64,000 bases of DNA from Mycolicibacterium brumae (lineage in GTDB: Bacteria > Actinomycetota > Actinomycetes > Mycobacteriales > Mycobacteriaceae): contig NZ_CP104302.1 of assembly GCF_025215495.1 (NCBI RefSeq), positions 3,224,001 through 3,288,000 on the forward strand, in the 5' to 3' direction. Both the position numbers and the translations under genes were made by a program. Shown here one piece after another: positions 15,218-42,495 of this stretch; the stretch's first letter is position 1, and each line of letters opens with the position of its first letter. The notes under the pieces were generated by a model. The model saw only the letters and a list, made by a program, of their open reading frames with translations, was not told where the DNA came from and searched no databases.

Positions 15218-15241
15218 TTAATTATATGATCGGCTAATTAT
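15218..15241 (+). promoter_or_regulatory. Operator/promoter A (CTAATTA box) of the accessory block
   Basis: AT-rich element just before and overlapping the start codon of the oxidoreductase gene. TATGAT at 15225-15230 is a good -10. The ATG is 10 bases further on, so the transcript is probably leaderless. GCTAATTA (15233-15240) overlaps the start, with a second TAATTA at 15219-15224, 16 bases away. The same CTAATTA box appears at three other promoters of this block (24031, 28479, 29766). Confidence 0.6.
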
Positions 15242-18571: not shown

Positions 18572-18578
18572 CGGGTCC

Positions 18579-24018: not shown

Positions 24019-24070
24019 TATTAGCTGGTGGACTAATTAATATGTAACAGGGGTCACTATGGTCTGTCAA
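24019..24070 (-). promoter_or_regulatory. Promoter and operator B of the E1 catabolic operon
   Basis: On the minus strand TTGACA (24065-24070, perfect -35) is 17 bases from TTACAT (24042-24047, -10). The box TTAATTAGTC (24031-24040) follows at once, overlapping the expected start of transcription. A second half-site, GCTAATA (24019-24025), lies further downstream, before the E1-alpha start. This is the geometry expected for repression at +1. Confidence 0.65.
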
Positions 24071-27630: not shown

Positions 27631-27656
27631 GCAATCCTCCTGTTCAACCGTTGTTC

Positions 27657-28412
27657 TTAAAGCGACTGGATGTAGCCGAGGACCGCGTTGGCGATGAACG
27701 CCGACCCGTTCACACCCCACCCGCCGTCGACGTAGAGCGCCTGGCCGGTGACGTAGGCGGCGTCCGGGCCTGCCAGGAAGGCCACCGCGCCGGCGATGTC
27801 CTCGGGTGTGCCGAGCCGGCCCAGCGGCATCGCCGAGCCGATCGCCTGCTGCAGACCCGGATCGGCGAACTCGCCCGCGGTGCCCTCGGTGACGACCAGG
27901 CCCGGCCCCACCGCGTTCGCCCGGATCCGCCGGGGCGCGTATTCGACGGCCATCTGCTTGGTGAGCGCGACGACGGCCGCCTTGGACGCCGGATAGACGC
28001 CGCGGCCGGCGCCGCCGACCTCGGCGAGCACCGACGTGAGGTTGACGATCGCGCCGCCGTCGGGGCCGAAGCGGCCGGCCAGCGCGCGGGTGAGCTGCCA
28101 GGTTCCGACCACGTTGACCCGCAGCACCGCGTCCACGTCGTCCCGGCTGCTGTCATCGAGGGTCGCCGAGCGCCAGATGCCGGCGTTGTTGACCAGCACG
28201 TCGAGGCGGTCGATGGAGCCGGCCAGGGCCGCGACGGCGTCCTCGTCGGCGATGTCGCAGACCACCGCTCGGCCGCCGATCCGTTCGGCGACCTCGGTCA
28301 CCGAGGCCGCGTCGGCGTCGACGGCCACCACCTCCGCGCCGTCGGCGGCCAGTCGTGCCGCGACGGCCCGTCCGATCCCCCGCCCGGCGCCGGTCACCAC
28401 GGCTGTCGGCAT
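27657..28412 (-). CDS. Short-chain dehydrogenase/reductase
   Basis: A 251-aa classical SDR: cofactor loop VVTGAGRGIGRAVA with an acidic VVAVDAD that favours NAD(H), NNAG in LVNNAGIWRS, catalytic Ser in IVNLTSVLAEVGG, and Tyr/Lys in VYPASKAAVVALT, ending YVDGGWGVNGS. Likely oxidises an alcohol from the oxygenase steps. ATG at 28412 has GAGGTGG upstream and gives the conserved N-terminus. An ATG 8 codons earlier (28436) is possible. First gene of the SDR-Rieske-TetR group, facing away from gntR across operator C. Confidence 0.9.
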   Translation of the reverse strand: MPTAVVTGAGRGIGRAVAARLAADGAEVVAVDADAASVTEVAERIGGRAVVCDIADEDAVAALAGSIDRLDVLVNNAGIWRSATLDDSSRDDVDAVLRVNVVGTWQLTRALAGRFGPDGGAIVNLTSVLAEVGGAGRGVYPASKAAVVALTKQMAVEYAPRRIRANAVGPGLVVTEGTAGEFADPGLQQAIGSAMPLGRLGTPEDIAGAVAFLAGPDAAYVTGQALYVDGGWGVNGSAFIANAVLGYIQSL

Positions 28413-28460
28413 CTCCACCTCACCCTTCCGGCCCATCCGGGCAGCTATTTATGATTCATC

Positions 28461-28549: not shown

Positions 28550-29377
28550 GTGGAGTGCGACATCGCACGGCGTGAACCGGCCGCGCCGCTGTCGAATGCG
28601 CCGCGGGCGAAGAAGGCCGTCGACGGGGCGATCGACGCTCTGCGGTCCGACATCGTCTCCGGCCAGGTGGCCCAGGGCGCGCGGCTGCCCAGCGAACGCG
28701 ACCTTGCGGCGCATTACGGGGTCAGCCAGCCGACCATCCGGGAGGCCGTCCGCGCCCTCGCCGCCATGGGGTTGATCGAGGTCCGGCACGGCAGCGGCGC
28801 CTACGTCCGCGGTGACAGCGACTTCCTGATGGCCACCGCGCTGCGGATCCTCCTGCAGATGAAGGACGTCGGGCTGCTCGAAGCCCTCGACGTGCGCACC
28901 GCGCTGGGCCTGCAGTCCGCGCGCGCCGCCGCGCTGGCCGCCGACGAGTCGGACCTGGCCGCGCTGGAGGACGCCTACCGCGCGCTCGACGACGTGTCCG
29001 GGCTCGCCGATCACAGCGCCCTGATCGGCGCGGTGGCCGGGTTTCAGATCGCGCTGTCCCGCGCCGGGCGCAACGAGCTGACCTCCGCCATCGAGACCGT
29101 GCTGATCTCACTGATCATGCAGATGCAGTTGAAGGCGCTGCGCAGCAGAGGGATCCGGTATTGGCAGGACCAGACCGTGAAGTTCCAATCCGATCGGATG
29201 CGCATCCTTGAGGCGGTGCGCGAGGGTGACCCGGAAGCCGCGGCCGCGGCGATGGCCGGCTACCTCAACCATCAGCGGCAGTACTTCACCGCCGACGAGG
29301 AGCTCGCCACGCTGCGGCTGTCCGATCCCCGCGCGGTGCGCGTGCTGGACGAATTGTCGCCCAGATCTCGGCGATGA
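28550..29377 (+). CDS. GntR-family regulator, FadR/FCD type (Mce1R/Mce2R-like)
   Basis: A 275-aa regulator. The winged helix is at about residues 22-90: KKAVDGAIDALRSDIVSG, RLPSERDLAAHYGVSQPTIREAVRALAAMGLIEVRHGSGAYV. The C-terminal FCD helical ligand domain follows, with the run AALAADESDLAALEDAYRALDDV. FCD-type GntR proteins such as Mce1R and Mce2R repress mce operons in M. tuberculosis. Here the gene lies between operators C and D and next to the P450-mce operon, so it is the best candidate to bind the CTAATTA boxes and to regulate itself. GTG start at 28550. Confidence 0.9.
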   Translation: MECDIARREPAAPLSNAPRAKKAVDGAIDALRSDIVSGQVAQGARLPSERDLAAHYGVSQPTIREAVRALAAMGLIEVRHGSGAYVRGDSDFLMATALRILLQMKDVGLLEALDVRTALGLQSARAAALAADESDLAALEDAYRALDDVSGLADHSALIGAVAGFQIALSRAGRNELTSAIETVLISLIMQMQLKALRSRGIRYWQDQTVKFQSDRMRILEAVREGDPEAAAAAMAGYLNHQRQYFTADEELATLRLSDPRAVRVLDELSPRSRR

Positions 29378-29675
29378 TCGACTCCTTGTCGGGGTACAGC
29401 GGTTTCTCCATGGTCGGCGAGAACGGCGCGTGCACATCCGGGGCGGTGTGCCGTCGGATCGGCGCCCGCAGCCCGGCGGGCGCCCGTTCGGCGATCGCCG
29501 CGCAGATCTCGGCCGCCGCGCCGGCGGTCCGGTTCGCCGGATCGACGACGAGCAGGTGGCCGGTCGCGCGCACCGACGCCGCGATGGTTTCGACGTCCAG
29601 CGGCGCCACGTTGAAGTCCAGCCACGGGTCGCTGAACAGGTTGAAGTGTCGTTTGGCCAGGTCGATCGAACTCAC
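29352..29675 (-). pseudogene. Chimeric remnant ending in an E1-beta C-terminus
   Basis: A short reading frame starts with a good Shine-Dalgarno (GGAGG) and GTG at 29675. It gives about 22 unrelated residues (VSSIDLAKRHFNLFSDPWL...), then jumps into APLDVETIAASVRATGHLLVVDPANRTAG and TAPDVHAPFSPTMEKPLYPD. That is the C-terminal domain of a transketolase-type E1-beta subunit, the same family as the intact gene at 22004. The first two-thirds of E1-beta are missing. The frame continues antisense into the gntR 3' end. It looks like the scar of a deletion in an older E1 operon that ran leftward from this promoter region. Confidence 0.65.
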
Positions 29676-29732
29676 GGACACCTCCGATGCGGACTTCTGA
29701 ACCTCTATTTTTGATGTCAAGATCCCCAAGGC

Positions 29733-29777
29733 TTGCATATGAGCTAGCTCACTAATATATTGGGCGACTAATTAGTC
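29733..29777 (+). promoter_or_regulatory. Promoter and operator D of the P450-mce operon
   Basis: TTGCAT (29733-29738) and TATATT (29756-29761) are separated by exactly 17 bases, a good sigma-A promoter. The perfect 12-bp palindrome GACTAATTAGTC (29766-29777) starts 4 bases after the -10 and so covers +1. Coding begins at 29819, giving a leader of about 50 bases. This is the cleanest of the four CTAATTA operators. Confidence 0.7.
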
Positions 29778-29818
29778 AAACGCATCCGGCGTCACAGCCC
29801 AGAGATCGGGAGCCCGTT

Positions 29819-31090
29819 TTGACCGACACCATCAGCTCAGCCGCCGCATGCCCGGTGGAGTCCTTCAACCCGATGGACCCGCAGACCATGCAGTGCCCCT
29901 ACCCCTGGTACCAGGCGCTACGGCGCGAGGACCCGGTGCACTTCGTGGCCGGTCTGGGCATGTGGGTCGTCACCTCCAAGGAACTGGTGAGCCAGGCGCT
30001 GCAGAACCACGAGGTGTTCTCCTCGGCGTTCGGCCTGCCCCAGATGCCACCGCCCGCCGCCGTCGCCGACCAGGTCGCCGAGATCACCGCCCAGGGCTGG
30101 GATTTGATCCCCACCCTGCTGACCTGCGACCCGCCCGATCACCACTACTACCGACGGATGGTGTCGCGGGCCTTCACCCCGCGGTTCGTGGCCCAGCGGG
30201 AGCCGGCCATCCGACAGATCGCCGACGAGCTGATCGGCGCGCTGCCGGTCGGCGAACCGGTGGAGATCATCGAGGCGCTGGCGGCGCCGCTACCGCTGCG
30301 GGTCATCGCCCACACCCTCAACGTGCCCGAGGACCGCATCGGCGACTTCCGGCGCTGGTCGGATCAGTTCGCGCTGACCATCGGCGCGGTGATCGATGAG
30401 GAAGGCGCGCTCGAGCAGGCCCGCAACCTGCTGCAGTTCGAGCAGTACTTCGCCGCCCAGCTGGAGGACCGGCGCAACAACCCGCAGGACGATCTGATCA
30501 CCGGTCTGGTGCAGGCCGCTGGCGTCGACGGCGATGAGCCGCTGACCACCGGCGCGGCGCTGAGCATCCTGCAGCAGATCCTGATCGCCGGCAACGAGAC
30601 CTCCCGCAAACTGATGACCGGGACCCTGCACCAACTCGCGCTGCACCCGCACTGGTGGCAGTGGTTCAAGGAAGACCCGGCCGGGCGGTCGGCGAACCTG
30701 GTGGAGGAATCGCTGCGCTTCCTCACTCCGGTGCAGGCCATGTTCCGGATCACCAAAGCCGAAACCGAGCTGGGCGGCAAGACCATCCCGGCCGGCCAGA
30801 TGGTCATCCTGAACTTCGGCGCCGCCAACCGCGACGAGGCGACGTTCGACGACGGCGAGGAGTTCGACCCGTACCGGGCCAACGCCCGCTCACACCTGGC
30901 CTTCAGCCAGGGCATCCACGCCTGTCTGGGCGCCGCCCTGGCCCGACTGCAGGCCCGAATCGCGTTGGAGGACATCGTCACCCGCTTCGACTCGATCCAA
31001 CTCGGACCGGACAACGACTTCACCTACGACGCCAGCTTCATGCTGCGCGGCCTGAAACGGCTGTCGCTGATCTTCGAGGCGAGCGCCTAA
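29819..31090 (+). CDS. Cytochrome P450
   Basis: A 423-aa bacterial class I P450. The I-helix oxygen-activation motif is ILIAGNETSRKL, ExxR is EESLRF, and the heme-ligand loop is FSQGIHACLGAALAR with Cys369 as the axial thiolate. The inferred start is TTG 29819 preceded by GGGAG. An ATG at 29874 is an alternative but would trim the N-terminus. First gene of the operon controlled by operator D, 21 bases before yrbEA. Electrons could come from the ferredoxins at 16506 or 18254. Substrate is unknown, probably the hydrophobic compound imported by the Mce system. Confidence 0.93.
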   Translation: MTDTISSAAACPVESFNPMDPQTMQCPYPWYQALRREDPVHFVAGLGMWVVTSKELVSQALQNHEVFSSAFGLPQMPPPAAVADQVAEITAQGWDLIPTLLTCDPPDHHYYRRMVSRAFTPRFVAQREPAIRQIADELIGALPVGEPVEIIEALAAPLPLRVIAHTLNVPEDRIGDFRRWSDQFALTIGAVIDEEGALEQARNLLQFEQYFAAQLEDRRNNPQDDLITGLVQAAGVDGDEPLTTGAALSILQQILIAGNETSRKLMTGTLHQLALHPHWWQWFKEDPAGRSANLVEESLRFLTPVQAMFRITKAETELGGKTIPAGQMVILNFGAANRDEATFDDGEEFDPYRANARSHLAFSQGIHACLGAALARLQARIALEDIVTRFDSIQLGPDNDFTYDASFMLRGLKRLSLIFEASA

Positions 31091-31111
31091 ACCGTCTACA
31101 GCCCAGACGAT

Positions 31112-31966
31112 ATGACGCTCGAACAATCACCCAACGCCGAACCACCCCGCGAGGTCATCGCCCGGTGGTCCAAGGGATACCTCGACCGGCACCCGGTGAC
31201 GGCGCTGCGCACCGTCGGCGGTCAGTGTGTGCTCGCCGTGCGCGCCTGCCAGTTCCTGGTGCTCGACGCCCTCCGGATGCGTTTCCCGTTCCGCGAGTTC
31301 ATCGACCAGGCCGTTTTCATGGCCCGCACCGCGGTGGTCCCGACACTGTTCGTCGCGGTGCCGATCAGCGTGACGCTGGCGATCCAATTCAGCCTGCTCG
31401 CCGGACAGCTCGGCGCCACCGCGCTCGCCGGCGCCGCCAACGGGCTGGCCGTCATCAAACAGGGCGCGCCGCTGGTGGCCGCCATCCTGATGGCCGCCGC
31501 CGTCGGGTCGGCGACCAGCGCGGATCTGGGGTCCCGCACCATCCGCGAGGAGATCGACGCGATGGAGGTGATGGGCGTCTCGGCGATCCGGCGGCTGGTG
31601 GTCCCCCGGCTCGCCGCCAGCGTGGTGGTGGCCATCGCGCTGACCGGCTTCACCTGCTTCATCGGGTTTCTGGCCGGGTACGCGTTCACCGTCATCCTGC
31701 AGGGCGGCACCCCCGGCTCCTACACCTCGACGTTCTCCTCCTTCGCCACCGTGGAGGATCTGGCGCTGACGCTGTTCAAGGCGTTCGTGTTCGGCGTGAT
31801 CGTCGCGATCGTGTCCTGCTACAAGGGCATGCACGCCAACGGCGGCCCGGCCGGGGTGGCCAACTCCGTCAACGCCGCTGTGGTGCAGTCGATTCTGTTG
31901 CTATTGCTGGCCAACACCCTGATCAGCCAGATGTACATCGTGCTGTTCCCCAAGACGAGTTTCTGA
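31112..31966 (+). CDS. yrbEA: MCE-associated ABC permease YrbEA
   Basis: A 284-aa MlaE/YrbE-family inner-membrane permease with about five or six membrane spans, e.g. VVPTLFVAVPISVTLAIQF and VVVAIALTGFTCFIGFLAGYAF. It carries the family-typical EEIDAMEVMGVSAIRRLVVPR loop, the coupling segment for the ATPase MceG. It pairs with YrbEB to form the channel of an Mce lipid importer. The ATPase gene is elsewhere, as is normal in mycobacteria. One base separates it from yrbEB. Confidence 0.94.
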   Translation: MTLEQSPNAEPPREVIARWSKGYLDRHPVTALRTVGGQCVLAVRACQFLVLDALRMRFPFREFIDQAVFMARTAVVPTLFVAVPISVTLAIQFSLLAGQLGATALAGAANGLAVIKQGAPLVAAILMAAAVGSATSADLGSRTIREEIDAMEVMGVSAIRRLVVPRLAASVVVAIALTGFTCFIGFLAGYAFTVILQGGTPGSYTSTFSSFATVEDLALTLFKAFVFGVIVAIVSCYKGMHANGGPAGVANSVNAAVVQSILLLLLANTLISQMYIVLFPKTSF

Positions 31967-31967
31967 C

Positions 31968-32822
31968 ATGGCCGCCATCTACCTGCCCCCCGGCCTGCGG
32001 CCGCTGGCCGTCGCCGCCCGATCCACCCGCTTCCACGCCGCGCGGATCGGGCACATGGTCGCGTTCTTCTTCCGGATGCTGGCCGGCATCCCGATGGTGG
32101 CCAAACGCTACCGGCGCGAGTTCCTGCGGCTGTCCTCCGACGTCACCTGGGGCAACGGCTCCATCGTGGTCGGTGGCGGCACCGCGGGGGTGGTGCTGGT
32201 GGTCGGCATCGCCGCCGGCGCCGTGGTCGCCATCGAGGGTTACAACGCGCTGAACCTGTTGGGCCTGGGCCCGGCGACCGGGTTGATCACCGCGCTGGCC
32301 ACCGTCCGCGAACTCGCCCCGATGATGGCGGCGCTGGCGTTCGCGATCCAGGCTGGCTGCCGGTTCACCGCCCAACTCGGCGCCATGCGGATCTCCGAGG
32401 AGATCGACGCCCTGGAAGCCGTCGCCATCCGCCCGATCCCCTACCTGGTCACCACCCGGGTGCTGGCCTCGGCCGTCGCCGTGGTGCCGCTGTTCGTGGT
32501 GTGCCTGGTGCTCAACTTCCTGGTCTGCCAGGCGGTGGTGTTCCTGGCCAGCGGCCAGGGATCGGGCACCTACCTGCATTACTTCCTGCTGATGCTGTCC
32601 GGCACGGACATGGTCTACGCGGTGATCAAGGTGTGCGTGTTCGTCGCGGTGATGTCCACCCTGCAGTGCTACTACGGCTACTACGCCAGCGGTGGTCCGC
32701 GCGGGGTCGGGGTGGCCGCGGGCCGGGCGATGCGCGCCAGCATCACGGTCATGGTCGTCGTCAACATGATGCTGACGATGGCGTTCTGGGGCATCGACGC
32801 CGGCGGGAGGCTCGGCGGATGA
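31968..32822 (+). CDS. yrbEB: MCE-associated ABC permease YrbEB
   Basis: A 284-aa second YrbE permease. Hydrophobic spans include VVGGGTAGVVLVVGIAAGAVVA and VVPLFVVCLVLNFLVCQAVVF. The coupling loop is SEEIDALEAVAIRPIPYLVTTRV, and ATGLITALATVRELAPMMAALAFA is the conserved MlaE motif. It forms a heterodimer with YrbEA in the plasma membrane. Its stop overlaps the mceA start (ATGA). Confidence 0.94.
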   Translation: MAAIYLPPGLRPLAVAARSTRFHAARIGHMVAFFFRMLAGIPMVAKRYRREFLRLSSDVTWGNGSIVVGGGTAGVVLVVGIAAGAVVAIEGYNALNLLGLGPATGLITALATVRELAPMMAALAFAIQAGCRFTAQLGAMRISEEIDALEAVAIRPIPYLVTTRVLASAVAVVPLFVVCLVLNFLVCQAVVFLASGQGSGTYLHYFLLMLSGTDMVYAVIKVCVFVAVMSTLQCYYGYYASGGPRGVGVAAGRAMRASITVMVVVNMMLTMAFWGIDAGGRLGG

Positions 32823-34081
32823 GTGGCAACCCGTTCGAACTCGACGGCCGCGGCCCATCAGAGCGCACGCTGCTGGTCAGCTTCGTCGCGTTCCTGGTGG
32901 TGATCGGCCTCGGTGGGGCGTTGATGTACGCGAAATCCGTTGGGGCCCTGGATCCGCGGGTGCAGATCGTCGCCTCGATGTTCACTGTCGGCGACGGCCT
33001 GCCCACCAAATCCGATGTGAAGTTCCGCGGCGTGCTGGTCGGCATGGTGCGCTCCGTCGACCCCGCTCTGACCGGCGAGGGCAACACCGTCGCCATCGAT
33101 CTGAAACCGCAGTACGCCAGCCAGATCCCGGCGACGGTGACCGCGCGGGTGGTGCCCGGCAACGCGTTCGCGGTGTCCACCGTGCAGTTGGTGGACAACG
33201 GACTCGGCGGCCCGGCCATCCGGACCGGCGACGTCATCACCCAGGACCAGTCGCTGCCGACGCAACTGTTCCAGACCACGCTGGCCCGGCTGCGGGAGCT
33301 GGTCGGCGCGGCCGCCCGCCCCGGCAACGACCGCACGATCGGCCTGATGCAGACCATCTCCGACGCCACCGCCGGCAAGGGACCGCAGCTGACCTCGGCG
33401 GCCCAAGGCCTGGGCCGCATCGTCGAGGAGATGAACCAACTGCGCGTCGACGAGTCCGGGCCGCCCGCGATCGCCACCTGGACCGCGGCCATCGACGCGC
33501 TGCGCAGCACCGCGCCGGACCTGCTGGACGTCCTCGACGGAGCGATCACCCCGATGCGCACCGTCGCCGAACAGCAAGCGGCGCTGACGAATCTGCTCAC
33601 CGGGGCCAACCACACCGTCGCCACCATGGGAACGGCGATGGACAACCACACCGACACCCTGGTCGACATCACCACCCACCTCAGCCCCGTCGTCGGCGTG
33701 CTGGCCCAGCGCGCGAACAAGTTCCCGGCGATCGGCGTCGGCATCAACAACGTGGTCAACACCTTCTTCGACCAGTTGTGGACCCGCACCGGCCAGAAGG
33801 TGACGTTCACCTTCAAACTGGTGGTGTCGCTGGCTCCGCTGCGGATCTACACCCGCGCGGACTGTCCGCGCTACGGCCAGCTGCAGGGCCCGAGTTGTCA
33901 TACCGCCCCGGAGTTCCCGGTGGGCCTGGACCCGCGCGGCGGCCTGCCCGATCCGCGCAGCTACGTGCCGCCGCCCGGGACCGTGCTCACCGAGGAGACC
34001 ACCGCCTCCGATGACCTGCTGCTGGGCGCCGTCGGCGTGGCGCCGCTGCCCGCCGAGGAACCCGCCGGAGGCACGCCGTGA
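32819..34081 (+). CDS. mceA: MCE family protein MceA
   Basis: A 420-aa MCE protein: short cytosolic N-terminus, membrane anchor LLVSFVAFLVVIGLGGALMYA, then the MlaD/MCE beta-barrel domain (VQIVASMFTVGDGLPTKSDVKFRGVLVGMVRSV), a long helical region that forms the periplasmic channel, and a C-terminal tail with paired Cys (TRADCPRYGQLQGPSCHTAP). MceA-F make a hetero-hexamer that carries lipids across the periplasm to YrbEAB. Starts in the yrbEB stop codon and ends in the mceB start. Confidence 0.93.
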   Translation: MSGNPFELDGRGPSERTLLVSFVAFLVVIGLGGALMYAKSVGALDPRVQIVASMFTVGDGLPTKSDVKFRGVLVGMVRSVDPALTGEGNTVAIDLKPQYASQIPATVTARVVPGNAFAVSTVQLVDNGLGGPAIRTGDVITQDQSLPTQLFQTTLARLRELVGAAARPGNDRTIGLMQTISDATAGKGPQLTSAAQGLGRIVEEMNQLRVDESGPPAIATWTAAIDALRSTAPDLLDVLDGAITPMRTVAEQQAALTNLLTGANHTVATMGTAMDNHTDTLVDITTHLSPVVGVLAQRANKFPAIGVGINNVVNTFFDQLWTRTGQKVTFTFKLVVSLAPLRIYTRADCPRYGQLQGPSCHTAPEFPVGLDPRGGLPDPRSYVPPPGTVLTEETTASDDLLLGAVGVAPLPAEEPAGGTP

Positions 34082-35118
34082 CCACGCACAGCCGAAACCT
34101 GGTGTGGATCAGCTTCTTTGTCGTCGTCTGCTTCATGCTGACCTGGATGATCTACGTCACGCTGCGGCGGGACGTGGAAGGACCCACGCACACCTACAGC
34201 GCGGTGTTCACCGACGTCACCGGACTGCGGGCGGGCTCCGACGTCCGGATGGCCGGCGTGCGGGTCGGCCGGGTCGACGACGTCGAACTCGACGGCGACA
34301 TCGCCCGGGTCAGGTTCCGGGTGCAGGCCGAGCAGCCGGTCTACGCCGACACCAAAGCCGCTGTGGTCTACCAGAACATCATCGGGCAGCGCTACATCGG
34401 GCTGACCAAGGGTGACGCCGGTGACACCCAGACCCTGGCCGACGGCGCCGAGATCCCGTTGGAGCGCACCGAGGGATCCTTCGACGTGACGGTGCTGCTC
34501 AACGGCTTCGAGCCGATGTTCACCATGCTCGACGCCGACAACCGCGGCAACCTGTCCAACGCGTTGATCAATGCGCTGCAAGGGGATTCAGATTCGGTGG
34601 TGGTGCTGATCAGCGAAACCTCACGGCTGGCGCAAACCATGGCCGGCCCCGACCAGGTGCTCGGCGACCTGATCGACAGCCTCAACCGGGTCACCGAGAA
34701 CCTAGCGGACTCCGGCGACGAACTCTCCGGCACGCTGACGCAGCTGCGGGTGGTGGTCGCCGGCCTCAACGCCCGCCGCGACGAACTCGTCGCCTCCACC
34801 GGCTCCATCACCACCGTGATGGCCCGGCTGGCCGGCATCACCTCGGCCGTTCAGCCCGATCTGCAGGACATGCTCGGCCGCCAGCCCGGGATGCTCTCGG
34901 TGATGGTGGACAACCAGGACAAGTGGGCAGAAGTCGGCGCGAACCTGCCCGCCGTGCTCAAGGGCGTCGCGCGGATCACCGGAGACTCCACCGCGATGAG
35001 CGCCATGCCGTGCGACTTCAACTTCACCATCTTCAATTTCCTCAAACCGATCATCCCCACCATCGTCGACGCCGCCACCCACGGCGGGAAACGGAAGTAC
35101 ACGGCGAAATGCAGGTGA
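34078..35118 (+). CDS. mceB: MCE family protein MceB
   Basis: A 346-aa MCE protein. Membrane anchor VWISFFVVVCFMLTWMIYVTL, MCE domain with YSAVFTDVTGLRAGSDVRMAGVRVGRVDDVEL, then YQNIIGQRYIGLT and a helical region with SNALINALQGDSD. Cys-bearing C-terminus CDFNFTIFNF. Component of the Mce channel. GTG start overlaps the mceA stop (GTGA). Confidence 0.93.
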   Translation: MTTHSRNLVWISFFVVVCFMLTWMIYVTLRRDVEGPTHTYSAVFTDVTGLRAGSDVRMAGVRVGRVDDVELDGDIARVRFRVQAEQPVYADTKAAVVYQNIIGQRYIGLTKGDAGDTQTLADGAEIPLERTEGSFDVTVLLNGFEPMFTMLDADNRGNLSNALINALQGDSDSVVVLISETSRLAQTMAGPDQVLGDLIDSLNRVTENLADSGDELSGTLTQLRVVVAGLNARRDELVASTGSITTVMARLAGITSAVQPDLQDMLGRQPGMLSVMVDNQDKWAEVGANLPAVLKGVARITGDSTAMSAMPCDFNFTIFNFLKPIIPTIVDAATHGGKRKYTAKCR

Positions 35119-36140
35119 AACGCCCGCTGGAGGATCTCAGCCAGGCCTGGCTGGGCGCCATCGCGCTGGCCACCCTCGGCGCGCTGATTCTGGCCACCAC
35201 CGCGCTGTCGGCGCTGCACCTCGGCAAGACCAGCTACACCGCCGAGTTCCCGCAGGCCGCCAGCATCCGGCCCGGCGACCAGGTCAGCGTGGCCGGGGTG
35301 CCCATCGGCGCGGTGTCGGCCACCGACCTGGCCGGCGACCGGGTGCTGGTCACCATGAAACTCGACCCGAAGGTGCGCCTCGGCGACGGGACGCAGGCCT
35401 CGATCAAACTGACCACGGTGCTGGGCTCGCGCTACATCGAACTGCGCCCGCGCGGCGACAATCCCCTGCCCGACAACAGGATCGGGTTGCACAACACCTC
35501 GGTGCCCTATGACCTACAGAAGGTGCTGGAAGACTCCACCACAACCTTCGAGGCGGTCGACGCCCAGCGCTTTGCCGAATCGCTGGACACCGTGTCGGTC
35601 CAGTTGGCCGGGGTGCCGTCGGTGTTGCCGGACGCGCTGAACAACATCTCGGCGCTGTCGGAGGTGATCTCCACCCGTCGCTCCCAGATCGCCGATCTGC
35701 TGCGCAACACCGCCCGCGTCTCGAACATCCTCGGCGATCAACGCGAGGATCTGAGCGCGCTGATCACCCAGGGCCGGGCGCTGACCGCCGAGCTGGTCAA
35801 CCGCCGCGCCAGCGTCGAGCGGCTGCTGAACGCGGCGACCACCCTGGTCAGCGTCGCCGGCGAGGTGATGAACACCGACCGCGCGCACATCGACAAGATG
35901 CTCGCCGACCTCAAGGTGGTCACCGCCATGATGGGCGACCACGAAGACCTGCTGCACAACCTGTTTCAGATCATGCCGGTGGCGATGCGCAACGCCGCCA
36001 ACGCCACCGGATCCGGCCCGTTCCTGGACTTCATGCTGCCCGGCGGGCTGATGGTGGACTCCTGGATGTGCGCCATCGCGAGCCGCGCCGAGCAGTACCA
36101 CTGGCCCGAGCGCTACCAGTACTTCAAGGACTGCCAATGA
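35109..36140 (+). CDS. mceC: MCE family protein MceC
   Basis: A 343-aa MCE protein. Anchor WLGAIALATLGALILATTALSAL, MCE domain YTAEFPQAASIRPGDQVSVAGVPIGAVSA, TTVLGSRYIELRP, then the helical channel part with LNNISALSEVISTRRSQIADLL. The ATG at 35109 overlaps mceB by 10 bases. GTG 35115 would give the 4-base overlap used by the other junctions and costs only two residues. Confidence 0.92.
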   Translation: MQVKRPLEDLSQAWLGAIALATLGALILATTALSALHLGKTSYTAEFPQAASIRPGDQVSVAGVPIGAVSATDLAGDRVLVTMKLDPKVRLGDGTQASIKLTTVLGSRYIELRPRGDNPLPDNRIGLHNTSVPYDLQKVLEDSTTTFEAVDAQRFAESLDTVSVQLAGVPSVLPDALNNISALSEVISTRRSQIADLLRNTARVSNILGDQREDLSALITQGRALTAELVNRRASVERLLNAATTLVSVAGEVMNTDRAHIDKMLADLKVVTAMMGDHEDLLHNLFQIMPVAMRNAANATGSGPFLDFMLPGGLMVDSWMCAIASRAEQYHWPERYQYFKDCQ

Positions 36141-37243
36141 GGCGGGGCACGATCGGGTTGGCCGCGCTGCTCGCCACGGTGGCGGTGTTGATCGGCGGCG
36201 CGGTGCTGATGCGCCCCGACGAGCCCAAGAAGATGGTGATCACCGCGCAGTTCGACAATGTCATCGGCCTCTACAGCGGGAACTCGGTGGCGATCCTGGG
36301 CATGCCGGTCGGCACGGTCGGCTCGATCACCCCGGCCGGCGACCACGTCGACGTGGAGTTGGAGATCGACCCCGGCCACGACCTGCCGGCCGACGTCCAG
36401 GCCGTCACGGTGGGCACCTCCATCCTCACCGACCGGCACGTCGAACTCACCCCGCCGTATGCCGGCGGGCCGAAACTGGACAACGGCGCGGTGCTCGGCC
36501 CGGAATCCACCCGCACCCCCATCGAATTCGACCGGGTGCTGGCGATGGTGGAGAAGCTCGGTGTGGCGATGGGCGGCGACGGCCACGGCGGCGGTCCGCT
36601 GGACAATGTGCTCACCGCCACCTCGAATATCACCACCGGCAACGGCAAACACATCAAGACCGCGCTGACCCAGCTCTCGGAGGCGCTGCGGACCGGGGCC
36701 GACGGCGGCGCGGCGACCCGGGAGAACATCACCGCGATCGTCACCCAACTCGCCGCGCTCACCGACGCCGCCGCCCAAAACGACGCGCAGGTGCGCGAAT
36801 TCGGGACCTACGTGCGGACCGTCAGCGACATCCTGGCCGAGCAGAACGTCGGTGGTGGCGACACCGGCCGCAAACTCAACGAGGTGCTCACCCAGGTCAA
36901 TGAACTGCTCGACTCCGGCGGCGAGAACCTCACCAGCACCCTGGGCAGCGCCAACCGGCTGACCAAATCACTGTCGGACTACCGCCGGGAACTCTCCGAG
37001 GTGTTCGACGTGGCGCCGCTGGCCATCGACAACGTCTCCGGCGCCATGGACACCCAGAACGGAATGCTGCGCGTCGGGGCGCATTTCGACTCGGTGTTCT
37101 TCGACAGCTCCATGACCAAGGAGGTCTGCAACATCATGGGTCTGCGCCAATTGGGTTGCCGCACCGGGTCGATCAAGGACCTGGGCCCCGATTTCGGTGT
37201 CACCTCGATGCTGGAGGCGATGACGAGGTTGCCGGGCAAATGA
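36137..37243 (+). CDS. mceD: MCE family protein MceD
   Basis: A 368-aa MCE protein. N-terminal anchor GLAALLATVAVLIGGAVLM, MCE domain ITAQFDNVIGLYSGNSVAILGMPVGTVGSI, TSILTDRHVELTP, and a long helical part. One feature is an unusually Gly/Asp/His-rich insert MGGDGHGGGPLDN near residue 150. The family role is as a subunit of the Mce hexamer. Starts in ATGA with mceC and overlaps mceE in the same way. Confidence 0.92.
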   Translation: MRRGTIGLAALLATVAVLIGGAVLMRPDEPKKMVITAQFDNVIGLYSGNSVAILGMPVGTVGSITPAGDHVDVELEIDPGHDLPADVQAVTVGTSILTDRHVELTPPYAGGPKLDNGAVLGPESTRTPIEFDRVLAMVEKLGVAMGGDGHGGGPLDNVLTATSNITTGNGKHIKTALTQLSEALRTGADGGAATRENITAIVTQLAALTDAAAQNDAQVREFGTYVRTVSDILAEQNVGGGDTGRKLNEVLTQVNELLDSGGENLTSTLGSANRLTKSLSDYRRELSEVFDVAPLAIDNVSGAMDTQNGMLRVGAHFDSVFFDSSMTKEVCNIMGLRQLGCRTGSIKDLGPDFGVTSMLEAMTRLPGK

Positions 37244-38364
37244 GACACCGCATCCTGGGAATCGCCGTCACCGCCGCCGTGACGCTGACCGGCTGCTCGG
37301 CCGGGGTCGAGCAATTGCCGCTGCCCGCGCCCGGGCTGAGCGGGCCCAGCTACCAGATCAGCGCCGAGTTCTCCAACGCGCTGAACCTGCCGGACCGCGC
37401 GAAGGTTCGTGTCGACGGCGCCGATGTCGGCGAAGTGGTGGCGATGAAGGCCGTCGACTACACCGCGGTGGTGTCGATGCGGATCATCAACGACGTGCGG
37501 CTGCCGAAGGGCACCACCGCCGAATTGCGTTCGGCAACCCCGCTCGGCGACGTCTTCGTGGCGCTGCGCCCGCCCGCCGACGCCGGTCCGGCCGGGCCGG
37601 TGATGGCCGACGGCGACACCATCGCGCTGGACGCGACCGCCGCCGCGGCCACCGTGGAGCAGGTGCTCGCCTCGGCGTCGCTGTTGGTCAACGGCGGCGT
37701 GGTGCGCAACCTGACCCGGGTGCTCAACGGGGTCGGCTCGGCGGTCGGCAAGGACGGCGCCGGGCTGACGGAGCTGATCCGGGAGTCCCGCGCCCTGGTG
37801 TCCACCATGGCCGGTCGCTCCGAGGAGATCCACACCATGCTCACCGCGACCAAGCAGCTCGCCGACGTGCTGGACAGTCGGCGCGACACCATCAACGGCG
37901 TGTTGGACGCGTCGAGTCCCGCGCTGGCGACCATCGCCGACAACACCACCGCCATCGTGACGCTGATCAACGAAATGGGTTCGGTCACCGAACAACTCAA
38001 GAAATTCCCGTCCATCCAGGGGACCGACACCCGCAGCCTCATCGCGGACCTGAACACGCTGTCCGCGGCGTTCAACGAGACCTCGCTGGATCCGCGGGTC
38101 ACCCTGGACAACCTGCTGCGCTTCATCCCGGTCGGCATCAAACTGTTCTCCACCAACGCCCCGGCCGCCGACGTCGACCTGCAGCAGCTGGCGCTCGGCC
38201 ACATCGAGGACATGAACCACTTCGCCGATCCGGGTTTCACCGGCCCGAAGTGGCACAACTGGGACGCCCTGGTGGGCTCCATCCGGCAGGTGCTCACCCA
38301 ACTCGGCGACCGGGTGTGGGACGACCGGCCCGACGACGACCAGATCTGGGGGCCGCCCCGGTGA
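37240..38364 (+). CDS. mceE: MCE family lipoprotein MceE (LprK type)
   Basis: A 374-aa lipoprotein subunit. The signal peptide RILGIAVTAAVTLTGC ends in a lipobox with acylated Cys19. The MCE domain follows (YQISAEFSNALNLPDRAKVRVDGADVGEVVAM), then LRSATPLGDVFVALRPP and the helical region ending in HFADPGFTGPKWHNWD. MceE is the only lipid-anchored subunit in such operons. Overlaps both neighbours by 4 bases. Confidence 0.93.
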   Translation: MRHRILGIAVTAAVTLTGCSAGVEQLPLPAPGLSGPSYQISAEFSNALNLPDRAKVRVDGADVGEVVAMKAVDYTAVVSMRIINDVRLPKGTTAELRSATPLGDVFVALRPPADAGPAGPVMADGDTIALDATAAAATVEQVLASASLLVNGGVVRNLTRVLNGVGSAVGKDGAGLTELIRESRALVSTMAGRSEEIHTMLTATKQLADVLDSRRDTINGVLDASSPALATIADNTTAIVTLINEMGSVTEQLKKFPSIQGTDTRSLIADLNTLSAAFNETSLDPRVTLDNLLRFIPVGIKLFSTNAPAADVDLQQLALGHIEDMNHFADPGFTGPKWHNWDALVGSIRQVLTQLGDRVWDDRPDDDQIWGPPR

Positions 38365-39623
38365 GCGCGCTGCTGCTGCGGGCGGTCCGCGCCGCCGTCT
38401 CCCACCGGCTGATCCTGTCGGTGGTCGGCCAGCTGCTGCTGGTGGTGGCCGGCGTCGGCTATCTGATGTTCGGCACGCTCGGGGTGAACCCGCTGCGCAG
38501 CCAGATCGCCGTGCAGATCGAACTCGCCGACTCCGGCGGCCTGCTGGCCGGCCAGGACGTCACCCTGCGCGGCGTCCCGATCGGCCGGGTGTCCTCGGTG
38601 GACCTGTCCGGAGACCAGGTCGTCGCGACCGCGGTGCTCGACGCCGACCACCGAATCCCGTTCCAGGGCACAGCGGTTCGGGTGTCCGCGCTGTCCCCTG
38701 CCGGTGAGCAGTACGTCAACTTCGAGCCGACCGGGACCGCCGGCCCGTACCTGCGCGACGGGGCGGTGATCGACCGGGAGCACACCGTGACGCCGGTGCC
38801 GCTGTGGCAGCTGCTGACCAATATCGACGGGGTGCTCGCTCAGGCGCAACCCGCGCGGATCCAGGGTGTGCTGGACGAACTCGGCGTCAGCGCGTCGGGC
38901 CCGCAGAAACTGCGGGATCTGCTCGGCGGCGCGCAGGTGCTGCTGTCCGCGCTGGACGGGGTGCTGCCGGAGACCATGACGCTGATGCGCGGCAGCCGCA
39001 CGGTGTTCCGCGTCTTCTCCGATTCGTCGTCGGGGATGCAGGCGATGTCGGCGAACCTGTCCGGAACGCTGCGCGGGGTCGGCGCGCGTGATGCCGGCAT
39101 CCGCCGGATGCTCACCCAGACCCCGGATGTGCTGGCCAGCGTGGACCGGGTCATCGAGGAGAACTCACCGACCATGGTGGAACTGCTCGGCAACCTGACC
39201 ACCGTCGCCCAACTGTCCTACGTGCGGGTGCCGGCGCTGGACCAATTGTTCAACGACGAGCGCCAGCCGATGCTCGACGGCATCGCCTCGCTGATGCATG
39301 ACGGCGCGATCTGGGCCATCGCCGACATCTACCCCCGCTACGTGTGCCACTACCCGCACCCGCGCGACGTGCCGTTCATTCCGAGCTACCCGGAACCGTT
39401 CCTCTACACCTACTGCCAGAACGACGACCCCTCGCTGCTGGTCCGCGGGGCCCGCAACGCGCCGCGCCCGGCCGGTGACGACACCGCGAACCCGCCCGAG
39501 GGGCTGGACACGCTGCGCCGCGCGGACCCGACGCCGAGAACCGAACACACCATCGACATCCCCTATGGCGGACCGGTGCTCCCCCCGGAGTCCCAGCCCA
39601 TCCGCCAGGGAACGGCCTGGTAG
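38361..39623 (+). CDS. mceF: MCE family protein MceF
   Basis: A 420-aa MCE protein, the last of the set. Anchor LILSVVGQLLLVVAGVGYLMFG, MCE domain VQIELADSGGLLAGQDVTLRGVPIGRVSSV, helical part, and a C-terminal tail with CHYPHPRDVPFIPSYPEPF and a Cys before NDDPSLL. GTG start within the mceE stop. The gap to the next gene is only 25 bases, with an AGGAG-type site (aggagaagagg) before the D27-like ATG, so the operon continues. Confidence 0.93.
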   Translation: MSALLLRAVRAAVSHRLILSVVGQLLLVVAGVGYLMFGTLGVNPLRSQIAVQIELADSGGLLAGQDVTLRGVPIGRVSSVDLSGDQVVATAVLDADHRIPFQGTAVRVSALSPAGEQYVNFEPTGTAGPYLRDGAVIDREHTVTPVPLWQLLTNIDGVLAQAQPARIQGVLDELGVSASGPQKLRDLLGGAQVLLSALDGVLPETMTLMRGSRTVFRVFSDSSSGMQAMSANLSGTLRGVGARDAGIRRMLTQTPDVLASVDRVIEENSPTMVELLGNLTTVAQLSYVRVPALDQLFNDERQPMLDGIASLMHDGAIWAIADIYPRYVCHYPHPRDVPFIPSYPEPFLYTYCQNDDPSLLVRGARNAPRPAGDDTANPPEGLDTLRRADPTPRTEHTIDIPYGGPVLPPESQPIRQGTAW

Positions 39624-39648
39624 GGCCACGAGGAGAAGAGGACAGCGC

Positions 39649-40341
39649 ATGGCAACAGTGTCGATCGGCAGCGGCGTCGCCCGGATGGGGCCGCTGACCA
39701 TGCTGCGCGACGAGTGGTTGATCCGGTCCATGATGAAGCGGGTCGGCGACCTGCCAGAGTCGATGTTCCTGCCGATGCTGCGGCTGCTGGCGCCCGACCG
39801 CGACGCCGTCGACGCCGGCTGGGCGCAGGTGATCGGCACCCGGCAGCGCCACCGGCGGTGGGAATCCCCCAGCAAGGCCTGGGAACGCCACTACGGCCAG
39901 TTCGTTCGGGAACTGGAGTTCACCGCCACCGGCCTGCGCGCCGAGCTCGGCCTGGAGGCCACCACCGAGCTGATCTCCGACGCCGTCGCCGCCCGGTTGA
40001 ACCGGTGGCTGCGGGTGATGATGCCGATGTTCGGTTCGGTGAAGCTGGTGCCGGACGCCATCTACTCCCCGGTGATGGACGCCGGGGTGGCGTTCGCGAC
40101 GTTCCTGGTCGGCCCGATCCACGCGGCGGGCGAAGAGCCCGACGGCACTCTGCTCTACGAGATCCCCGAATGCGCCATGCACACCGTCGCCGGAACCGGC
40201 TCCGCGCAGGAGAACTCGTGCCTGATGGGGTGTAAAGCGTCCTGCGAGAAGGTGTTCCACGCCGGCGGGCCGATGCCGCTGGAGTTCGATCCGCACCTGC
40301 CCGGCCTGTCCTGCACCCTCCGGGTGCGCAAGGCCACCTAG
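39649..40341 (+). CDS. D27-like (DUF4033) protein, candidate carotenoid isomerase
   Basis: A 230-aa soluble protein. Its C-terminal third matches, by eye, the Cys signature of the plant beta-carotene isomerase DWARF27 C-terminal domain. There is C175 in YEIPECAMH, then C191-x3-C195-x3-C199 in SCLMGCKASCEKVF, and then PLEFDPHLPGLSC, with the same P-L-x-[FM]-x-P-x5-S-C spacing. D27 converts all-trans to 9-cis beta-carotene with an iron centre, ahead of a carotenoid cleavage dioxygenase. Here the next gene is a carotenoid-type oxygenase. The N-terminal 170 residues are helical and unrecognised. Another Cys-containing hydrolase family cannot be excluded without a profile search. Confidence 0.6.
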   Translation: MATVSIGSGVARMGPLTMLRDEWLIRSMMKRVGDLPESMFLPMLRLLAPDRDAVDAGWAQVIGTRQRHRRWESPSKAWERHYGQFVRELEFTATGLRAELGLEATTELISDAVAARLNRWLRVMMPMFGSVKLVPDAIYSPVMDAGVAFATFLVGPIHAAGEEPDGTLLYEIPECAMHTVAGTGSAQENSCLMGCKASCEKVFHAGGPMPLEFDPHLPGLSCTLRVRKAT

Positions 40342-40366
40342 CCCACCCACCAGATTGGAACCCGCC

Positions 40367-41806
40367 GTGACCGACGTCGCCGAGCCCAAGATCAAGACCT
40401 ACACACCGCTGTACGACGAGTACAACTACACCATCGACGATGTCGAGGGCGAACTCCCCGAGGACCTGCGCGGCACGCTGTACCGCAACGGGCCCGGGAA
40501 GATGGAGGCCGGCGGAACCCCGCTGGGGCACCTGTTCGACGGCGACGGGATGCTGTCGATGTTCACCATGGCCGACGGGAAGACGCACTTCCGCAACCGG
40601 TTCATCCAGACCAAGCACTATCAGAAATCCATCGTCTCCGACGCGGCGCCGTTCCGGGCGCTGGGCACCATGCGCGCCGGCGGGGTGCTGGCCAACGCGC
40701 TGCGATTCCCGGCGAATGTGGCCAACACCGCGGTGGTGATGCACGCCGGGAAGCTGCTGGCGCTGTGGGAGGGCGGTCGGCCCACCGAACTGGACCCGGA
40801 CACGCTGCGCACCAAGGGCGAGCACGACTTCGACGGCGAGCTGAAATGGCTGGGCGCGTTCTCCGCGCATCCCAAGTGGGACTGGGACACCGGGGAGCTC
40901 TTCAACTTCGGGATGGCGATGGCGCCGGTGCCGCGGCTGATCTGCTACCGGGTGGACCGGGCCGGGAAGATGCGCCGGCTCGCGCATGTGAACCTGCCCG
41001 GCCCGATGTTCAACCACGACGTCGGGCTGACCAAGAAGCACATGGTGTTCGTGGTGCCGCCGCTGGTGTTCCCGCTGCCGAAGTTCTTCGGCGCGGCGTT
41101 CGGGTTGCGCAACTACATGGACGCATTGGAGTACGACGCGTCGCGGGGCACCATGATCGCGCTGGTGCCCCGAGACGGCGGCAAACCCCGCATCCTGCAC
41201 ACCGATCCGCAACTGCACCTGCACATGTGCAACGCCTACGAGGACGGCGACGACACCGTCGTCGAACTGCTGAACTACCACGCCACCTGGGAGCAGCTCA
41301 ACGGGCAGCTGTCGGCGATCGACTCGCTCGCCGACACCGGGACGATGCCCTACGGCGGGATCCCGACCCGGATGCGGATCGGCCGCGGCGGTCGCATCTC
41401 GGTGGAGGAGTTCTCCGGCCTCAACGGCGAGTTCCCGGCCATCAACGTCAAGCGGATGGCCACCCGTAACCGCTACACCTACCTGTCGGCCGGTCTGGAC
41501 GGCAGCGTCGTCCCGAACGCGCTGGCCAAGATCGACGCCGACACCGGCAAGGAGACGCTGCTGCGGATGCCCGACGGGCACCTGCCGCACGAGGCGGTGT
41601 TCGCCGCCCGTCCGGACGCGCAGTCCGAGGACGACGGCTGGCTGTTGATGCCGGTGCTCGACGCGGTGAACAACATCGCCAACCTGACCATCGTCGACGC
41701 CCGCGATATCGAGGCCGGGCCGGTGTACACCGGCCGGCTGAGCCATCACCTGCCGTTGACGTTCCACGGCTGCTACACCCCGCGCGTGGCGAGGCCGCCG
41801 CGGTGA
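40367..41806 (+). CDS. Carotenoid-cleavage-type oxygenase (CCO) 2
   Basis: A 479-aa propeller oxygenase with the four iron-binding His: H168 in FSAHPKW, H217 in MFNHDVG, H286 in HLHMCNAYE (H-x2-N-x2-E) and H466 in TFHGCYTP. LYRNGPGKMEAGG and HLFDGDGMLSMF near the N-terminus are family typical. It is only distantly similar to CCO1 in this window, so the two probably cut different substrates or bonds. GTG 40367 was chosen. A TTG 4 codons earlier is open. It follows the D27-like gene by 25 bases and overlaps the next gene by 4. Confidence 0.92.
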   Translation: MTDVAEPKIKTYTPLYDEYNYTIDDVEGELPEDLRGTLYRNGPGKMEAGGTPLGHLFDGDGMLSMFTMADGKTHFRNRFIQTKHYQKSIVSDAAPFRALGTMRAGGVLANALRFPANVANTAVVMHAGKLLALWEGGRPTELDPDTLRTKGEHDFDGELKWLGAFSAHPKWDWDTGELFNFGMAMAPVPRLICYRVDRAGKMRRLAHVNLPGPMFNHDVGLTKKHMVFVVPPLVFPLPKFFGAAFGLRNYMDALEYDASRGTMIALVPRDGGKPRILHTDPQLHLHMCNAYEDGDDTVVELLNYHATWEQLNGQLSAIDSLADTGTMPYGGIPTRMRIGRGGRISVEEFSGLNGEFPAINVKRMATRNRYTYLSAGLDGSVVPNALAKIDADTGKETLLRMPDGHLPHEAVFAARPDAQSEDDGWLLMPVLDAVNNIANLTIVDARDIEAGPVYTGRLSHHLPLTFHGCYTPRVARPPR

Positions 41807-42495
41807 GGCGGGCGCTGGCGGCGCTGGCGGCGGTGGCTGTCACGCTCGCGGCCGCGCCCGCCGCGGCAGCCGATCCGCCGCTGTCGGCGGTCGGGCACGA
41901 GATCTCCGGTGTCGGACCGGATGGGTTGGGGCACTGGGTGGTTCGGTATCAGCGGCTGGCCGGATCCGGCCCGATCATCGACCGGATCAACGAGGTGATC
42001 GACGCCGAGGCGCGCGGGCAGGTGTCCACCTACGACGCCAGCGCGTCCAAGACCACCGACTGGACCCTCGACATCGACGGGGTGCTGGGGTTCCGGCCGG
42101 TGACCGTCTCGGCGCTGTTCACCGGGCTCTATGACACCGACCTGCCGAACATGCCGTTCCACACCGTCGGCACCCGGGTGTTCGACACCCGCAGCGGCAT
42201 CCTGATCTCCTGGGACAATCTGTTCGTCAACAAGCAGGAGGGGCTCAACCGGTTGTCGGAGGCGACCCGGGAGATCCTGCCGCAGACCTACGCCCCGCCG
42301 TCGCGGACCGGGGTGTGGCAGTTCGGCAGTGAGATCGCGCCGGTGGACGCCAACTACCGGTACTGGATCCCCACCGACGGGGGCATTGAATTGCATTTCG
42401 CCGATTGGCAATTCGGCCGCGGTCAGTCCTGGATCACCGTGCCGTGGGAGCGGGTGCGGGACCTGATCGCCCCGGAGTTCCAGGCGATCATCTAG
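41803..42495 (+). CDS. Secreted RsiV/DUF3298-like protein
   Basis: A 230-aa protein with a clear Sec signal peptide (RRALAALAAVAVTLAAAPAAAA). The mature region, GRVFDTRSGILISWDNLF-like in style (TVGTRVFDTRSGILISWDNLF, then ELHFADWQFGRGQSWITVPWE), resembles the DUF3298/RsiV-type extracytoplasmic domain that is common in mycobacterial secreted proteins. GTG at 41803 overlaps the CCO2 stop as GTGA, so a cell-envelope protein is coupled to an oxygenase. It may be an accessory factor of the import system, which is inferred only from position. Last gene of the operon. Confidence 0.75.
   Translation: MRRALAALAAVAVTLAAAPAAAADPPLSAVGHEISGVGPDGLGHWVVRYQRLAGSGPIIDRINEVIDAEARGQVSTYDASASKTTDWTLDIDGVLGFRPVTVSALFTGLYDTDLPNMPFHTVGTRVFDTRSGILISWDNLFVNKQEGLNRLSEATREILPQTYAPPSRTGVWQFGSEIAPVDANYRYWIPTDGGIELHFADWQFGRGQSWITVPWERVRDLIAPEFQAII

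Follow-up and report, generated by a model that had tools for sequence, protein, structure and literature searches.

A putative gene set for import and degradation of a carotenoid-like polyene, with a D27-related gene in its mce run, in Mycolicibacterium brumae

Introduction

In actinobacteria, cholesterol import by Mce4 works together with degradation of the side chain, and to our knowledge few Mce operons have a known substrate. In this study, a stretch of 64,000 nucleotides from Mycolicibacterium brumae (contig NZ_CP104302.1, positions 3,224,001 to 3,288,000 of the forward strand), hereafter called the window, was analyzed around a plus-strand run in which a cytochrome P450 gene, a complete mce operon, a gene related to plant DWARF27 (D27), and a carotenoid cleavage oxygenase gene (CCO1) follow one another. 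The neighbors of this Mce operon point to a testable substrate, and we judge it rather probable that the run belongs to a set of genes for the catabolism of a polyene, either a carotenoid or an apocarotenoid-like compound, of exogenous origin.

The closest described systems each share some of these components. Mycobacteria encode the ATPase Mkl/MceG outside their mce operons (PMC1810536). MtCCO (Rv0654) and M. kansasii cco1 are mycobacterial oxygenases that cleave carotenoids, and the species of MtCCO was described as having no carotenogenic genes (PMC5133782, PMC9861118). D27 was found in 20 of 200 cyanobacteria (22 of 204 in the text), isomerase activity was demonstrated for one cyanobacterial D27, and BLAST, according to the same 2024 paper, gave no D27 in prokaryotes besides cyanobacteria (PMC11449226).

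Results

Organization and conservation of the plus-strand run

The run occupies 29819-41806 of the window, in a genome of 3,988,920 bases on a single contig. Its frames were open with no internal stops, and its junctions were 4-base overlaps or otherwise gaps of 1-25 bases. A preliminary description of this DNA had listed these genes as one plus-strand run with overlaps or short gaps, and all of them were found present, open, and in frame. The start that it gave for the run, 29733, lies before the promoter element described below. Two starts were revised, that of the P450 to a TTG at 29819 and that of MceA to an ATG at 32819. The genes of the run and the one that follows it are:

29819-31090, plus strand, cytochrome P450 (Pfam p450 4e-24; FSQGIHACLG, ESLR, and AGNET present)
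31112-31966, plus strand, YrbEA permease (MlaE 7.8e-61; best solved match Yrbe1a, 8fed)
31968-32822, plus strand, YrbEB permease (MlaE 7.9e-57)
32819-34081, plus strand, MceA (MlaD 2.4e-9; Mce4_CUP1 3.9e-16; ATG start)
34078-35118, plus strand, MceB (MlaD 4.7e-21)
35115-36140, plus strand, MceC (MlaD 2.3e-18)
36137-37243, plus strand, MceD (MlaD 3.3e-15)
37240-38364, plus strand, MceE (MlaD 1.4e-14; LTGC lipobox-like stretch at the N-terminus)
38361-39623, plus strand, MceF (MlaD 2.1e-13)
39649-40341, plus strand, D27-related protein of 230 aa, proposed polyene isomerase (relatives and profile comparison)
40355-41806, plus strand, CCO1 (RPE65 1.4e-114; best solved match Synechocystis apocarotenoid oxygenase, ACO)
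41803-42495, plus strand, secreted protein (no Pfam match)

As in actinobacterial Mce systems, there were two YrbE permeases and six Mce proteins, with MlaD in all six. The best solved matches of the P450 were bacterial P450s (among the best 60 of 577 matches). The secreted-protein gene, which had been counted as part of the operon, overlaps the CCO1 stop by four bases and is co-directional with it in the window. Relative to the Mycobacterium-group loci that have this gene, where it is convergent with the CCO gene, it is inverted here, and the Nocardia loci examined yielded no copy of it; therefore, it probably lies outside the conserved unit.

The D27-related gene was present in 8 of 397 genomes sampled from the order (2 of 74 genera) and in 3 of 61 near relatives, the own genome being included in both counts, and in 1 of 296 genomes sampled from the phylum, which was the window's own. 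Scanning the genome collection with two peptide patterns gave 59 stretches representing 17 loci, of which 16 came from Mycobacterium-group species and Nocardia and one (L046) shared the Cys motif only. Gene order was read in two overlapping sets, eight loci known by genome handles and 16 named loci, with at least four of the eight lying on the same contigs as named loci. The complete order P450-YrbEA-YrbEB-MceA-F-D27-CCO was kept in seven of the eight. In 15 of the 16 named loci, as far as the fetched stretches reach, mce genes were followed by the D27-related gene and then by a CCO gene, the exception being L039, which is rearranged close to a contig end. The synteny of mce operons with D27-like and CCO genes that the preliminary description had looked to was thus recovered, in the same order, in Mycobacterium-group species and Nocardia.

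Homologues of CCO1 with at least 60% identity occurred in 9 of the 397 genomes, comprising all eight with the D27-related gene; in the ninth (G163) there was no D27-related match, and the 19.5 kb read contained no mce genes. Of the more distant homologues listed, the seven whose surroundings were read (41-45% identity) had no mce or D27-related neighbor. Reduced versions of the gene set were also seen: L014, the eighth locus of the first set, had no mce genes within the 19.5 kb read and a stop inside its D27-related gene, and L075 had the CCO gene alone. In most relatives, an extra open frame lies between mceF and the D27-related gene; in the seven loci where it was read (L013, L016, L017, L018, L032, L033, L035), it spans 188-234 aa with a hydrophobic stretch and probably encodes a Mce-associated (Mas) protein. 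Between these two genes in the window, L015, L030, and L036, there is too little space for such a frame.

The D27-related protein

The 230-aa protein had no Pfam match at E ≤ 10 and no NCBIfam match at E ≤ 1, and its likeness to D27 consequently rests on its relatives and on profile comparison. The gathering score of PF13225 (D27-like_C, 27 bits) was reached neither by this protein nor by its relatives, and membership of the D27 family was therefore not assigned. The own genome gave no PF13225 match, while five of six single genomes searched at E ≤ 1 matched (E 0.011 to 0.39), none of them over the cut-off. The preliminary description had called the protein D27-like and had tied its reading to a DUF4033 (PF13225) match for 39649-40341 and to a CCO not confined to stilbenes; the profile match did not appear, the CCO of the operon proved not to be tied to stilbenes, and the likeness itself stood on the order of the Cys residues, the LVGP motif, and the profile comparison.

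Five Cys (175, 191, 195, 199, 222) and LVGP were invariant in all 17 aligned sequences. The Cys are ordered as in plant D27 (C, CxxxCxxxC, SC), with a shared C-x3-C-x3-C core and LVGP preceding; after the core, the D27-related protein has MPLEFDPHLPGLSC and plant D27 has MPIYMEPDFNDLSC. Among 88 partly overlapping sequences (2,040,770 translated residues), a pattern fitting both the plant and the window proteins was confined to those that hold D27-related genes, and it misses the ones with GC in place of the final SC. Since this pattern was written after both proteins had been seen, it serves as a specificity check only.

Profile comparison by hhalign with two sequences that we take to be those of plant D27s gave P 1.2e-4 and a probability of 55% over 125 columns, and none of 200 column shuffles and none of 32 other window proteins did as well. 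The Cys part alone gave P 0.001, and the part before the Cys motif alone gave P 0.03. The sequence taken as Arabidopsis D27 scored 120 bits against PF13225. A small alphaproteobacterial protein (L046, 9938-10315), chosen by scanning the whole collection for the Cys motif, shares SCLMGCK with no wider likeness seen, and it scored higher in hhalign (P 5.1e-8 over 45 columns). Even with this higher score, we consider a chance Cys motif the less likely explanation of the D27 likeness, given that the alignment also takes in LVGP and pairs the first and last Cys; the pairing of all five Cys with those of plant D27 is our own reading of the alignment. The predicted model (mean pLDDT 76) showed weak likeness to Bet3, H-NOX, and PoxR ligand-binding folds. 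The protein is best called D27-related, and for it we propose an isomerase role.

Carotenoid oxygenases and carotenoid synthesis

The best solved match of CCO1 was the Synechocystis apocarotenoid oxygenase 2biw (2.3e-67), compared with 5.9e-33 for lignostilbene dioxygenase I, and its four His and its LWEGG, EFP, and E positions aligned with 2biw. Both CCO1 and a second oxygenase of the window, CCO2, matched the RPE65 family profile and carried the four His, which we take to be the iron ligands. CCO2 has Met and Leu at the positions of Lys135, which contacts resveratrol in PbLSD (presumably chain 5v2d, which fits the residue numbering), and of the nearby Tyr103. Its relatives were matched by pattern in seven of nine loci (none was matched in L019 or L042; L020 and L043 lie on the same contig, leaving six distinct contigs), all with Met at the Lys position and with Leu or His at the Tyr position. 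A third CCO gene lies about 107 kb away (G000:C1:3372628-3374061), and its best solved match is a carotenoid 9,10-dioxygenase.

In a test of one family rather than of the full carotenoid pathway, PF00494 (phytoene/squalene synthase) had no match in the own genome, and 7 of 14 control genomes matched. Therefore, carotenoids are probably not made by this genome, and the substrate would come from outside. The carotenoid-like import-and-processing route that had been put forward is supported by the full Mce set, the ACO-like CCO, the D27-related protein, the absence of a PF00494 match, and the same gene order in two genera. Its proposed parallel with strigolactone synthesis was not supported as more than an analogy: the P450 matched bacterial P450s best, and the CCOs were nearest to ACO and lignostilbene-type enzymes rather than to plant CCDs. 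The best solved matches of these enzymes were thus other than CCD7, CCD8, and CYP711A types, as judged from solved structures and not from direct comparison with those sequences.

The divergent arm of the gene set

The P450-mce-D27-CCO run is one arm of a larger gene set. A second group of genes, encoded on the minus strand between 28436 and 16694, faces away from it. The genes of this side are:

28550-29377, plus strand, GntR/FCD regulator, candidate (GntR 4.5e-20; FCD 6e-12)
27657-28436, minus strand, short-chain dehydrogenase, SDR (adh_short_C2 6.4e-61)
26224-27720, minus strand, Rieske oxygenase (Ring_hydroxyl_A 8.4e-19; Rieske 6e-15)
25604-26200, minus strand, TetR regulator, candidate (TetR_N 3.3e-14)
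24081-25529, minus strand, CCO2 (carotenoid cleavage oxygenase 2; RPE65 7.7e-123)
23020-24006, minus strand, 2-oxoacid dehydrogenase-type E1 alpha (E1_dh 1.1e-78)
22004-23023, minus strand, E1 beta (Transket_pyr, Transketolase_C)
20493-22001, minus strand, acyl-CoA ligase (AMP-binding 8.7e-63)
19501-20691, minus strand, acyl-CoA dehydrogenase (top NCBIfam model IpdE2, its cut-off not reached)
18579-19508, minus strand, acyl-CoA dehydrogenase (profile matches)
18254-18748, minus strand, 2Fe-2S ferredoxin-domain protein (Fer2 1.9e-10)
17839-18261, minus strand, ChsH2-C/OB-fold partner protein (OB_ChsH2_C 4.1e-15)
16694-17842, minus strand, thiolase/lipid-transfer-type enzyme (profile matches)
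15240-16253, plus strand, MDR-type enone (double-bond) reductase (ADH_N_2 6.2e-31; curcumin-reductase model NF058644 2.4e-96, below its cut-off)

A 687-aa frame for CCO2 was rejected as a start artefact; CCO2 starts at the ATG at 25529, and what precedes this codon belongs to the TetR gene, which is read in a different frame. The Rieske, SDR, and beta-oxidation genes adjoin the run in most relatives examined. The SDR and Rieske genes were divergent from the P450 gene in six of the eight loci of the first set and farther away in G199. The six genes from thiolase to E1 alpha lay on the SDR-Rieske side in five of seven genomes (G022, G119, G218, G410, G319), with E1 alpha directly after the Rieske gene on the same strand in G410; in G199, two of the six were seen before the locus ends.

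Promoter elements and candidate regulators

Both arms are preceded by copies of one element, and related dyads stand before two further genes:

29748-29779, plus strand, conserved promoter/dyad element before the P450-mce-D27-CCO run, CTCACTAATATATTGGGCGACTAATTAGTCAA
28460-28491, plus strand, second copy, ahead of the SDR-Rieske genes of the divergent arm (same pattern)
24019-24039, minus strand, related dyad before the E1 alpha run (dyad pattern/weight matrix)
15219-15239, plus strand, related dyad abutting the ATG of the enone reductase (weight-matrix score weak in the window and strong in L023)

The first two are copies of one element, CTCACTAWTATATTRGSSRRCTAATTAGTCAA. The long pattern had two matches in the genome, both in the window, and none in 100 shuffles, a test that is not independent because the pattern was written from these same two copies; with a slightly looser element, no third genomic place was found within three mismatches. 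The divergent promoter of the relatives bears CACTATTATATTRGTNNACYAATTAGTCAAG, a pattern derived from those relatives, with no mismatch in seven loci (L013, L015, L016, L018, L019, L020, L030), one in L027, four in L017, and two and three in the window copies. The core of the element is the dyad ATTRGT-NN-ACYAAT.

A weight matrix was applied to ten further upstream regions, chosen after the dyads had been viewed, with 4000 random segments as background. In eight of the ten, namely five of six E1 alpha regions, two Nocardia CCO2 regions, and the L023 reductase region, the dyad score was reached by at most 0.5% of the random segments; eleven control regions, the window CCO2 region among them, gave random fractions of 0.017 to 0.90. 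Outside the ten, the E1 alpha region of L019 (after the Rieske gene) and the CCO2 regions of L019, L021, and L023 had no visible dyad. With the spaced dyad pattern, four separate genomic places were matched, of which two lie in the window (before E1 alpha and before the reductase). At G000:C1:126555-126575, a spaced dyad with one mismatch lies about 0.8 kb before YrbE-type permease genes of another locus.

Operators of GntR/FCD regulators are often shaped like the ATTRGT-NN-ACYAAT dyad. In the window as in G199, a GntR/FCD gene is a neighbor of the element, and a TetR gene stands beside CCO2; the genes may be commonly regulated, with the GntR/FCD or the TetR protein as candidate regulator. Between the GntR gene and the P450 gene lies an E1 beta-type gene fragment (29286-29738, minus strand; Transketolase_C 1e-14), flanked on both sides by the promoter element, which looks as though a rearrangement had broken one ancestral divergent promoter in two.

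Discussion

The gene set described here suggests an ordered route for a polyene. The Mce complex would bring the hydrophobic substrate in, and the D27-related protein would shift or equilibrate its cis/trans geometry to suit the cleavage enzymes. The ACO-like CCO1, with CCO2 afterwards or in parallel, may then cleave the chain into aldehydes and ketones. The P450, the Rieske oxygenase, and the SDR would oxidize the ring or the chain ends, the enone reductase would remove conjugated double bonds, and the CoA ligase, the two acyl-CoA dehydrogenases, the OB-fold/thiolase pair, and the E1 pair would feed the resulting acids into central metabolism. The GntR/FCD or the TetR protein could act on the promoters through the ATTRGT-NN-ACYAAT dyad. 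Since acyl-CoA, E1, and Rieske/SDR genes adjoin the run, several of them with operator-like elements, we favor catabolism over hormone-like synthesis; the preliminary description had left a catabolic and a signaling purpose side by side, and the latter is weakened by the adjoining acyl-CoA genes.

A number of observations weigh against this reading. Five of the eight aligned members of the D27-related family (window protein included) matched PF13225 below the cut-off, the best with E 0.013 and 15.9 bits; the part of the model that they match, roughly positions 42-80, is the Cys segment. At E ≤ 1, 4 of 14 unrelated control genomes also matched PF13225, and hhalign paired the first and last Cys and placed the middle Cys one off. 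Because of the matching control genomes and the displaced middle Cys, we temper our estimate of remote homology of the window protein to D27, which we still regard as likely. The best solved matches of CCO2 are lignostilbene-type oxygenases, and the window CCO2 has no upstream dyad, its score being reached by 78% of random segments, like the other controls. The dyads of the window reductase and the L023 E1 alpha are weaker (1.4% and 2.3% of random segments), and in G233 (L022) no beta-oxidation genes were found in the 19 kb read beyond CCO2. The beta-oxidation set, finally, could serve just as well for an isoprenoid acid of another kind, such as a sterol-like one.

This last point leads to the view, which we consider unlikely, that the substrate imported and degraded is a different hydrophobic isoprenoid (sterol-like, hopanoid, diterpenoid, or retinoid acid). 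The CCOs would then cleave a side chain with conjugated double bonds, and the D27-related protein would be a metal- or ligand-binding helper, a role that its predicted fold, with its weak likeness to Bet3, H-NOX, and PoxR, would allow. The beta-oxidation genes do look like those that break down steroid side chains (a ChsH2-C domain, a thiolase of the lipid-transfer type, and IpdE2 as the best model for one of the dehydrogenases). Sterols, however, have no long conjugated polyene, and two CCOs together with a D27-related protein suggest such a substrate. For the sterol side, it also counts that Mce4 is needed for cholesterol uptake (PMC4263727).

Degradation of stilbenoids or other phenylpropanoid plant compounds, to which the lignostilbene-type matches of CCO2 and the nearness of the reductase to a curcumin-reductase model would point, appears highly improbable. 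The stilbene-binding Lys and Tyr are replaced in CCO2, seven relative sequences likewise have Met for the Lys and Leu or His for the Tyr, and CCO1 is nearest to an apocarotenoid oxygenase; stilbene degradation was therefore held to be the less likely explanation. We find it equally hard to believe that an imported carotenoid is isomerized, cleaved, and oxidized by the P450 into a secreted, strigolactone-like apocarotenoid signal. The occurrence of D27-related, CCO, and P450 genes in a single run speaks for such a biosynthesis, but degradative acyl-CoA genes are linked to the run in most relatives examined, with related dyads, and the best solved matches of the CCOs and the P450 lie elsewhere, so that strigolactone-like synthesis was set aside as the leading explanation.

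If polyene catabolism is correct, a complete bacterial route for using environmental carotenoids would be in hand. D27-related proteins would extend to bacteria in which the published BLAST search found none and would be less tied to strigolactones and photosynthesis. A bolder claim, which we offer tentatively and would sooner doubt than assert, is that the protein would be the first polyene isomerase of the D27 family outside photosynthetic lineages. It would then belong to a dedicated system, built on Mce proteins, with which actinobacteria that are not photosynthetic import, isomerize, cleave, and fully degrade environmental carotenoids; an Mce operon would gain a new class of substrate, and D27 a catabolic role. 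Among the titles and abstract openings listed by searches of the open-access literature, none described this gene set, which is no proof of absence from print.

Comparison with known systems

The locus resembles the Mce4 cholesterol system in combining an Mce importer with a P450 and acyl-CoA side-chain degradation genes, and it differs by the addition of two CCOs, the D27-related protein, Rieske/SDR, and E1 genes and by a substrate that is probably a polyene. The mce1 to mce8 operons of Casali and Riley 2007 share the order yrbEAB-mceA-F, often with mas genes downstream, whereas P450, dioxygenase, and oxygenase do not occur in the portion of that text consulted (PMC1810536). The MmGI-1 island of M. 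massiliense has an mce operon, a P450, and a gene called beta-carotene ketolase; unlike in the window, the carotenoid oxygenase that the paper names lies elsewhere, and the word isomerase is absent from the part of the text at hand (PMC4263727). MtCCO and M. kansasii cco1 adjoin a TetR/AcrR-type gene, in contrast to the setting of CCO1, and 'mce' is absent from the available portion of PMC9861118.

Among single enzymes, the lignostilbene dioxygenases PbLSD and NOV1 are the best solved matches of CCO2, which differs from PbLSD in that Met replaces the Lys in contact with resveratrol and Leu replaces the Tyr (PMC6097328). DWARF27 and the cyanobacterial CaD27 (PMC11449226) share with the window family the order of the five Cys, the LVGP motif, and a similar C-terminal segment, whereas the window family falls below the Pfam cut-off and its gene lies within an mce run. 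The Synechocystis apocarotenoid 15,15'-oxygenase (2biw) is the best solved match of CCO1, in which the iron ligands are kept.

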